DNA of 64,000 nt from NCBI GenBank assembly GCA_028823175.1, contig JAPKBZ010000010.1:1-64000 (forward strand), given 5' to 3'. Below the pieces are notes generated by a model. That model saw only the letters and a program-made list of their open reading frames with translations, ran no database searches and was not told where the DNA came from. The position numbers were made by a program, and so were the translations under genes. Source of the stretch: Myxococcota bacterium (GTDB lineage: Bacteria; Myxococcota_A; UBA9160; UBA4427). Positions 28,913-32,050 of the stretch are shown piece after piece; the stretch's first letter is position 1, and each line of letters starts with the position of its first letter.

Positions 28913-30310
28913 TCAAGCAATCCCGGCGGAAGCCTCCCCAGGGACCAGACTGCCGATCAGAGAGTGCGGCGTAGCCTCGACGATCTCGACCTCGTGGATT
29001 TCCCCGGGCCGGGCCCGGGGCGCTGCGCCAGCCGCGTCGGGGGCCAGATTGACGAGGCGATGATGCGCGTCCCGGCCGCACAACTGCCCTCGCCCCCGCC
29101 GGCTCTCGCCGTGCACGAGAATCTGCACCCGGCGGCCAATGCACGCCCGGTGATGGGCCAGGGTCAGGCTGCGCTGGACCTCCTGCAGGGCTTCCAACCT
29201 TCGCTGGGCCTCGGGGCCCTCGACCGCTTCAGCGAACTCTGCGGCTGTGGTTCCCGGCCGAGACGAGTACTTGAAGCTGTAGCTATCGACGAAGCCCACC
29301 GCCTGAACGAGATCCAGGGTCTCCAGGAAATCCTTCTCCTTCTCCCCGGGGAAGCCCACGATCACGTCGGTGGTCAGCGCGATGTCCGGGACCGCCGCCT
29401 TGAGACCCTCTGTGATGCCGAGGAACTCGTCCCGGGTATAGCGCCGGCGCATCTTCTCGAGAACCGCGTCAGAGCCGCTCTGAAGAGGAATGTGCACATG
29501 GGGACAGAGGTGCTCGAGGGACGCGTGGGCCTGGATCAGCGCCTGGTCGAAAAAGAGCGGGTGCGGGCTCGTGTAGCGAATGCGCTCGAGCCCGGGCACG
29601 GCGTTCAGTTCGCTCAGCAATTCGGCGAAGGGCAGCGTCCCGGCCTGCTCGCTATGCCCGCGTCGCTCGGCGTGCCGGCCGTAGGCATTCACCGTCTGGC
29701 CCAAGAGGGTGACCTCACGCACGCCATGCTCGGCCAGGCGACGCGCTTCCTCGATGATTCCCTTCGCCGGGCGGCTGATCTCCCGCCCCCGGGTCTGGGG
29801 CACGATGCAGAAGGCGCAGAACATGTCGCACCCCTCCATCACGGTGAGGAAGGCGCGCCCCTGCTCCTCCCCCCGAATGCCCGGGTGGGGAAGGGGGAGA
29901 TCGAAGCGCTCGAGGGAGCGCGTCTCGCCCGTCTCCGAGCGCCGCTCTCCGCGCTGGGCCGCCTCGAGCATGGAGGGCACCAGCCGCAAATTATGGGTTC
30001 CGAAAACAAAATCGAGGTGCGGAAAGCGTTTCAACAGTGAGTCGCCGACCTGCTGCGCCACGCAGCCGCCCACCCCGATCACTCGACCCGGCAGGCCGCT
30101 CTTCCACTCGCGCAGGGCGCCTAGGTCGCTGTAAAGCTGGTTCTCCGCCTTATCCCGGATCGAGCACGTGTTGATCATCAGGACGTCGGCGCCATCGGCT
30201 TCGGATGCCGACTCGAAGCCGCCGTGGTAGAGCAGATTCGCGAGCTTGTCCGAGTCGTGCACGTTCATCTGACAGCCGTAGGTCCTAATATGAAAGCGCC
30301 GCCCGCTCAC
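28913..30310 (-). CDS. miaB: tRNA-2-methylthio-N6-dimethylallyladenosine synthase
   Basis: RRFHIRTYGCQMNVHDSDKL; MEGCDMFCAFCIVPQTRGREISRP radical-SAM CxxxCxxC; C-terminal TRAM region. GTG start at 30310 with upstream GGAGGAG; longer ORF to 30457 looks spurious. Confidence 0.96.
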   Translation of the reverse strand: MSGRRFHIRTYGCQMNVHDSDKLANLLYHGGFESASEADGADVLMINTCSIRDKAENQLYSDLGALREWKSGLPGRVIGVGGCVAQQVGDSLLKRFPHLDFVFGTHNLRLVPSMLEAAQRGERRSETGETRSLERFDLPLPHPGIRGEEQGRAFLTVMEGCDMFCAFCIVPQTRGREISRPAKGIIEEARRLAEHGVREVTLLGQTVNAYGRHAERRGHSEQAGTLPFAELLSELNAVPGLERIRYTSPHPLFFDQALIQAHASLEHLCPHVHIPLQSGSDAVLEKMRRRYTRDEFLGITEGLKAAVPDIALTTDVIVGFPGEKEKDFLETLDLVQAVGFVDSYSFKYSSRPGTTAAEFAEAVEGPEAQRRLEALQEVQRSLTLAHHRACIGRRVQILVHGESRRGRGQLCGRDAHHRLVNLAPDAAGAAPRARPGEIHEVEIVEATPHSLIGSLVPGEASAGIA

Positions 30311-30512
30311 CCTTCTCCTCCCCCGCCCATCGACCGAGTCCGCTCCGACTGCGGCAGGCCGAGAGCATGCCGCGTCTGGCTCCGGATCGCCCTTCCCCGG
30401 GAGGGGCCCCAGAATCCCTAGAAACCCCTCAAATATGACAGGAAGAAGTCTCTTCAAGTCTCTGTTTTTAAGCCACTTTTAAATATTGATCGAATGCTGT
30501 TCTAAAATGAGA

Positions 30513-30540
30513 TTGACAATGCCCGAGGCCCCGGCATAAT
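30513..30540 (+). promoter_or_regulatory. Sigma70-type promoter for the putative sRNA
   Basis: TTGACA (30513-30518), 16-nt spacer, CATAAT (30535-30540); AT-rich UP-like tract at about 30465-30510. Confidence 0.7.
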
Positions 30541-30546
30541 GCGGGG

Positions 30547-30698
30547 AGCGGCACAAAACCAGCAAAGGAATTGACAGTTTCGGAGCGGCGGTGGATTGGA
30601 TGTTTCTACTCGAAATGTCCAACCTCTCACCCCCCAAATTGAGTCCACCGCCCCTCCCCTGTGATACCCCGTCGGCCCTCAAGCCGGCGGGGTTTTTT
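30547..30698 (+). ncRNA. Putative structured small RNA (no family recognised)
   Basis: Promoter upstream; stem 30582-30595/30644-30657 (GGAGCGGCGGTGGA/TCCACCGCCCCTCC, 13 of 14 paired) with nested hairpin 30596-30606/30612-30622 (TTGGATGTTTC/GAAATGTCCAA); intrinsic terminator at the end. Confidence 0.65.
30667..30698 (+). terminator. Rho-independent terminator
   Basis: CCCCGTCGGC-CCTCAA-GCCGGCGGGG followed by TTTTTT; 10-bp stem with one G-U. Confidence 0.9.
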
Positions 30699-30814
30699 CT
30701 TTCCAGGGGTCTTCCCAGGCGTATGGCGTTTGTGGAAGGAAGGGCCGAAATCAGAGCGGGTCGAAGGCGCGCGAGGCCCCCTCGACCCGTCCGGCTCAGA
30801 CTCGCCGTGTGCCC

Positions 30815-32050
30815 TCAGTCGACTCCTACGATGAAGCTCACGCTGGTCGTGCCGCTTCCGCCGATATTGAGGGTCTGAAAATTCTTGGCGCCTTCGACCT
30901 GATAGGCCCCGGCTTCTCCAGTGACCTGCAGGCAGCCGTCGAGGAGTTGCCGCACGCCCGTAGCGCCCACGGGATGTCCCGCGCCGATCAGTCCGCCACT
31001 CGGGTTCATGGGGTGCCGGCCGTCGATCTCGAGCCAGCCCTCTTCGATGGCTTTCCAACTCTCACCCGGAGCTGTCAGTCCAAAATGGTCGATGGCCATG
31101 TACTCGGACGTCGTGAAGCAGTCGTGGGTTTCGATCCCGTCCACGCCGTTCGCATCGGCGATCCCGGCCCGCTCCCAGGCGCTCGTAATCGTGCTTCGCA
31201 CGTGGGGCAAGACATATTCGTTGCCCTGACTCTCGGCGACCTTGTCGTCGAATCGCAGCCGGGCCGTATTGTGCCCCCAGCCCTTCAGACGAGGGATCGA
31301 GGAGAGACTCTTGCCCATCCCCTTCGCGTACCGCTCGGCGTATTCCCGAGAGGCCAGGAACACACAAACCGCTCCGTCCGTGACTTGGGAGGCATCGGCA
31401 ATCCGGATTCGGCCGCCGATCGCCGGGTTGTCGTCGGTCCGGCAGAGGGCCTGCTCCTTATTCATGTACCAAGTGCGCGTCTGAGCGTTGGGGTTCAGCT
31501 TTGCGTTGGCATAATTGAGCCGGCTGATCTCGGCCAGATGCTCGTCCTTCAGCCCGTAACGCGCATCGTACTCATCCCCCAGACGACCAAAGAGCTTGGG
31601 AAACGGGAACTCGATGCCCTCGGCCTCTTGGTCGTACCAGGCGGCCGTCCCTAGATAGTCACCGCCCACATCCGCCGCCACCGTTTTCATCTGCTCGATC
31701 CCGACCACGGCCTGGAGGCCGTAGCGCCCCGCCTCGATCTCGGCCGAAGCCGCCAGCAGCGCGATGCTCCCCGAGGCGCAGGCCGCCTCGTGGCGACCGG
31801 TGGGCAGCCCGCTGAAAGCCGGGTGAACTTCGGTGAAAAAGGCCCCCAGATGCCCCTGCATGCAATAGAGCTCGGCAGCGAAATTGCCCACGTGGGCGCT
31901 CTCGATCTCCTCGGGCGCAATCTCACACTGCTCTAGCGCGCCGAGAACCCCTTCCCGCATGAGCGCGGAGAAGTGTTTGTTCTCCTTTGTCCAGTTCCGA
32001 GCGAAATCCGTCTGATAACCGCCCAGCACATATACTTCAGAGTTGGCCAT
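30815..32050 (-). CDS. Thiolase family protein / acetyl-CoA acetyltransferase (SCP2-thiolase-like)
   Basis: [62 protein letters not shown]. Confidence 0.9.

Follow-up and report, generated by a model that had tools for sequence, protein, structure and literature searches.

A single-copy small RNA gene family beside miaB in one class of Myxococcota, with a C-rich loop complementary to ftsZ and ftsA start sites

To our knowledge, the small RNAs described as targeting ftsZ (DicF, DinR and StfZ) have a narrow range and belong to enterobacteria. DicF is a 53-nt RNA processed out of an operon of the Qin prophage of E. coli that binds Hfq and has further targets (PMC5069750). DicF and DinR both pair at the ftsZ ribosome-binding site (RBS) and compete with the ribosome there, an established mode of action (PMC5069750, PMC10907235). 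In the case of DicF the pairing stops FtsZ synthesis, while DinR of Klebsiella, which is released by cleavage from the dinI mRNA 3' end, is SOS-controlled, Hfq-dependent and of narrow range, inhibits division (PMC10907235). IhtA of Chlamydia uses base pairing to repress translation of a small, basic protein resembling histones, and ftsZ does not figure as its target in the portions of the reports considered here (PMC3469542, PMC4355289). PmaR of Agrobacterium has a long stem and a C-rich single-stranded loop for target pairing and mostly activates its targets, away from the RBS (PMC6234868). Pxr of Myxococcus xanthus, with three predicted stem-loops, is a conserved myxobacterial sRNA that controls a growth/development switch (PMC5684412).

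The RNA studied here is encoded between miaB and a thiolase gene in a window of 64,000 nt, which is the whole stretch of DNA that was analysed (Table 1). It resembles DicF and DinR in its predicted occupation of the ftsZ RBS, for which the evidence here is computed complementarity. Unlike DicF, it belongs to the core genome of a whole class and has a promoter of its own, a stem that covaries and a C6 loop that is invariant; it is also predicted to aim at ftsA and a histone-H1-like gene, and it has no Rfam match. DinR is set apart by its origin, control and range. Homology with DicF or DinR, or an origin from the prophage dicBF operon or the dinI 3' end, was rejected because the RNA has its own promoter beside miaB and no Rfam match, and a phage origin likewise found no match. 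The predicted pairing with the H1-like gene recalls IhtA, which acts in another phylum on another target set, and the architecture recalls PmaR, which comes from an unrelated lineage. Pxr differs in its three predicted stem-loops, and a primer-derived Pxr pattern had no match in the sampled genomes. The literature collection searched held no publication linking Myxococcota, small RNA and ftsZ. The RNA is best read as a new sRNA family, with a matched set of predicted division-gene targets that is unusually deep, which would work like DicF and DinR and, at the H1-like gene, like IhtA, while being a member of none of these.

Table 1. Features of the small RNA locus and its neighbours (positions in the window)
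Feature	Position	Strand	Remarks
miaB, divergent neighbour	28913-30310	-	Pfam UPF0004, Radical_SAM; GTG start near 30310 inferred
Sigma-70-type promoter, TTGACA-16-CATAAT	30513-30540	+	Sole promoter-like site in 29000-32000
sRNA gene	30547-30699	+	Predicted transcript of ~150 nt from a predicted start; class homologues
Conserved core (covariance model R1)	30575-30659	+	Single match genome-wide (95.3 bits, E 1.5e-18)
Outer stem, 5' strand	30582-30595	+	13/14 pairs with 30644-30657; compensatory changes in homologues
Inner hairpin, 11 bp with pentaloop	30596-30622 (30596-30606/30612-30622)	+	Stacked on the outer stem
C-rich single-stranded segment CCTCTCACCCCCCAAATTGAG	30623-30643	+	Internal loop, 21 nt, 3' side only
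Predicted pairing seed UCACCCCCCAA	30627-30637	+	Perfect 11-nt complement of own ftsZ RBS UUGGGGGGUGA
Outer stem, 3' strand	30644-30657	+	Pairs with 30582-30595
Intrinsic terminator, 11-bp GC-rich stem + T6	30666-30698	+	Located at 30666-30693, T6 next
Thiolase, downstream neighbour	30815-32050	-	Pfam Thiolase

The first-pass annotation had described a promoter, stacked stems, a C-rich segment and a terminator at this locus, and all of these were found in place. The gene has its own promoter and a Rho-independent terminator by sequence, as in the general kind of trans-acting sRNAs with an anti-Shine-Dalgarno (anti-SD) C-rich loop. The promoter stands alone on both strands of the region searched, where 0.3 sites were expected from shuffled sequences. 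Of 72 distinct homologous loci, 61 had a sigma-70 promoter upstream of the RNA and in its orientation, none had one on the opposite strand, and a rough pattern search detected terminator-like sequence in 56. Promoter and core are anywhere between a few and about 200 bases apart; the 5' part of the RNA thus lacks the conservation seen in the core. The genes flanking the RNA from 25 to 36 kb, which is the part of the supposed 45-kb minus-strand block that was covered, lie on the minus strand. The miaB open frame runs to 30457, beyond the probable GTG start that follows GGAGGAGAAGG, and the true miaB-RNA intergenic region is therefore longer than the longest ORF suggests.

The minimum free energy of the RNA was -64.1 kcal/mol versus -44.6 ± 4.3 kcal/mol in 200 shuffles (z -4.6), none of which was as low. 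Compensatory changes were seen among homologues in the outer stem (e.g. GGCGGCGGAU/AUCCGCCGCC) and in the inner hairpin (L003, L008 and others). In an alignment of 68 distinct sequences, which was fitted to the covariance model and hence leans towards the model structure, 96.7% of the cells pair, 8 of the 22 pairs are changed on both sides, and 26 cells are changed on both sides versus 4.1 expected by shuffling, a number reached in 0/500 shuffles. In a MAFFT alignment, double-sided changes affected 6 pairs and 10 cells, again with 0/500 shuffles as high. Covariation of the stems in homologues, which had been put forward earlier as a check on the fold, was thus found. The G-U pairs are compatible with the plus strand alone.

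By blastn, 36 of 41 relatives keep the core of the region, whereas their flanks have diverged. The covariance model, built from 31 sequences, matched exactly once in each of 76 of the 91 genomes of the host class (Myxococcota, UBA9160 lineage) and in none of 288 other Myxococcota genomes, where stricter filters were applied. From record names we take the class of the RNA-bearing genomes to be GTDB class UBA9160; where records carrying the loop motif have names, these are of Deltaproteobacteria/Myxococcota MAGs, among them isolates UBA9160, UBA4427, SZUA-336 and TMED88. The window's own genome holds no paralogues with the loop motif, and at the miaB loci of 30 other-class genomes miaB was present and the RNA was not found. 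Among the class genomes with no model match, a contig break interrupts the RNA in G020, and in several others the miaB contig is broken or missing. A degenerate homologue (17 bits) lies at the miaB locus of G032 in family f9 (L157:3190-3272); its stem is partly retained via paired changes, its loop is a C9 run, and no terminator was detected. Pattern matches outside the family, in L118 (Acetobacteraceae) and L131 (a deltaproteobacterium, 30 bits), look like chance, and neither promoter nor synteny was seen for L131. At nearly all loci the RNA is flanked on one side by the divergent miaB 5' end and on the other by the 3' end of a thiolase gene (the window's genus and a few others) or a VWA_CoxE gene (most others). 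By these sequence comparisons, the RNA is a real, old, free-standing and vertically inherited single-copy gene family.

Searched against Rfam 15 at gathering thresholds, the window yielded two tRNAs only, with no family at the RNA locus; at lax thresholds the best sub-threshold match was anti-hemB, with 18.7 bits versus the 49.5 needed. The first-pass reading of the locus as a new structured sRNA is borne out by this absence from Rfam together with the conservation, the covariation, and the promoters and terminators of the homologues. In the order, 6S RNA was detected by Rfam in 2 of 41 genomes (L021 and L022), the others being without 6S or having a diverged one.

The loop core AACCTCTCACCCCCCA (30621-30636), a 16-mer, is invariant in the 31-sequence alignment, as is the unpaired core AACCUCUCACCCCCCA, which is also the same in a second order (L073-L080). 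The opening energy of the seed, 0.6 kcal/mol, is the lowest among the 11-nt windows sampled across the RNA (median 9.4), and its computed duplex energy with ftsZ is about -22 to -25 kcal/mol. For the window's family, the fold prediction adds a weak CUCA/UGAG pairing within the C-rich segment that leaves the C6 tract open and is absent from relatives such as L017. The RNA thus presents, by computation, an accessible and conserved C-rich loop complementary to start sites. The 3' end of 16S rRNA, UCACCUCC, is universal, and the loop UCACCCCCC resembles this anti-SD with C replacing U.

In the 91 class genomes, the 12-nt loop complement upstream of a start codon, GGGGGTGAGAGG-N0..14-ATG, gave 20 matches versus 2 for the reversed control. 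Five were the opposite strand of the RNA itself; the others included the ftsA start in 6 genomes of 3 families, the ftsZ start in one more, and one gene for a Pal-like lipoprotein, the FtsA and FtsZ identities being confirmed by Pfam. A second survey ignored the pattern and took all ftsA (85) and ftsZ (68) starts of the class, assigned by simple rules, with 191 starts of seven other class genes and 16 ftsZ starts of RNA-less Myxococcota as controls. The mean duplex energy with the loop was -21.2 kcal/mol for ftsZ and -20.1 kcal/mol for ftsA versus -10.8 and -10.6 kcal/mol, respectively, for the two controls. A contiguous complement of at least 8 nt was found at 65% of the ftsZ starts (up to 13 nt) and 44% of the ftsA starts, compared with 1% of the 191 control starts and 0/16 RNA-less ftsZ starts; 60 of 85 genomes have such a complement at ftsZ or ftsA. 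Five consecutive G residues (G5) occur at 79/85 ftsA (93%) and 59/68 ftsZ starts (87%), versus 7/191 control starts in one count and 5% of them in the other, and 0% of RNA-less Myxococcota ftsZ. Of the G tracts, 36/79 at ftsA (46%) and 39/59 at ftsZ (66%) are followed by UGA. A canonical SD is rare at ftsA (7/85) and ftsZ (3/68) and commoner at the control genes (45/191). The ftsZ leaders read, for example, TGGGGGGTGAGAG-ATG, and those of ftsA carry G5-G7 with TGAG present or absent.

At the level of single genomes, the window's own ftsZ site, CCTTGGGGGGTGAATACG-ATG, is an 11-nt perfect match to the loop, and its ftsA site has G5 only. Both the ftsA and the ftsZ site are lost in G039, in which the RNA was not found. 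Some RNA-bearing genomes lack good sites at both genes, or at the single one of the two that was seen in them (e.g. G044, G045 and G049). Several ftsA-like genes (two or three) or mixed bins were noted in some cases: L310/L383 (G060), L312/L334 (G058) and L338/L384 (G075). The earlier idea that the C-rich strand targets SD sequences is supported by this computed complementarity and can be confined to ftsZ and ftsA, with an H1-like protein as a probable third target.

The shorter pattern G6UGA-N4..12-ATG had 400 matches versus 83 for the reversed control, which amounts to a few extra sites in each genome. Among 70 G6UGA loci inspected, 18 were lysine/arginine-rich KKAT-repeat genes of histone-H1-like composition from many families, a fraction that is not unbiased because these genes were recovered through the pattern itself. 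These genes are on L405-L407, L410-L412, L414-L416, L452, L455, L456, L463, L471, L483-L485 and L397; Pfam gave no match for the two KKAT-repeat proteins tested. Many of the H1-like genes share the conserved leader ACAGGGGGGTGACCCAAG-ATG, and single G6UGA cases included a ParA-like and a MinD-like ATPase. The lysine-rich histone-H1-like gene is a recurrent candidate for a third target.

The poly-G sites of ftsZ and ftsA might simply be very strong SD sequences, with the sRNA acting on other targets and the match arising as a by-product of its likeness to the anti-SD. GGGGGGUGA does pair well with the 16S 3' end, which the loop itself resembles, and since G6UGA extends this pairing, strong translation could favour such sites without any sRNA. 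However, a strong SD would be GGAGGUGA, whereas the ftsZ and ftsA sites favour a G where the A would stand; the excess of G5 at ftsA and ftsZ over the control starts and the ftsZ sites without G5 in RNA-less Myxococcota also make this explanation unlikely. Quite improbable, in our judgment, is that the C-rich strand binds a protein (of the Rho, KH or cold-shock type) and that the RNA serves as a sponge or scaffold for proteins. Such a role would suit the strict invariance of the unpaired 16-mer and the strong conservation of the stem sequences, but it does not predict matched start sites at both ftsA and ftsZ.

The remaining explanations concern the identity of the RNA. The constant miaB neighbourhood would fit a cis element, antisense to miaB or part of its leader; we give this very little credence, as the RNA gene is divergent and carries a promoter and a terminator of its own, pairing at miaB start sites is not enriched, and the G-U pairs fit the plus strand only. 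A 6S RNA in diverged form, or some other housekeeping RNA already known, would share the single hairpin with one large internal loop and the near-universal single copy, and 6S mostly escapes Rfam in the order. Yet the locus has no Rfam match, the 6S covariance model (RF00013) included, and G036 has both the RNA and an above-cut-off 6S at separate loci, which leaves this identity with hardly any plausibility.

We therefore favour a trans-acting sRNA of the core genome that would pair with the start sites of ftsZ and ftsA, and also of the H1-like gene, and dampen their translation, a reading that we consider likely. The accessible C-rich strand, a one-sided internal loop, would base-pair with the poly-G RBS of ftsZ and ftsA and compete at these start sites with the anti-SD of 16S rRNA. 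Because the loop is like the anti-SD with C for U, it should prefer G6UGA over GGAGG sites, which would give specificity. Under some condition, pairing would keep the Z-ring proteins and the nucleoid protein from being translated, and division might in this way be coordinated with the chromosome state or growth. Transcription, pairing in the cell, repression and a signal are what we infer from the sequence.

Since its C-rich segment matches the RBS of both ftsZ and ftsA, the RNA probably controls when cells divide. It would be an ancient member of the core genome, an sRNA with an invariant loop that matches both Z-ring genes and with target sites that have persisted across two orders of uncultured Myxococcota. 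The proposal can be tested as a model of how RNA controls division, and Rfam would gain a new RNA family, complete with alignment and covariance model. More tentatively, and with somewhat less than even confidence, we suggest a class-wide regulon based on a modified anti-SD carried on a separate RNA, in which ftsA, ftsZ, the H1-like gene and perhaps ParA/MinD-type ATPases would have swapped GGAGG for G6UGA, so that one sRNA could turn down division and chromosome packaging together. If true, this class-wide G6UGA regulon would be a core-genome RNA cell-cycle switch.
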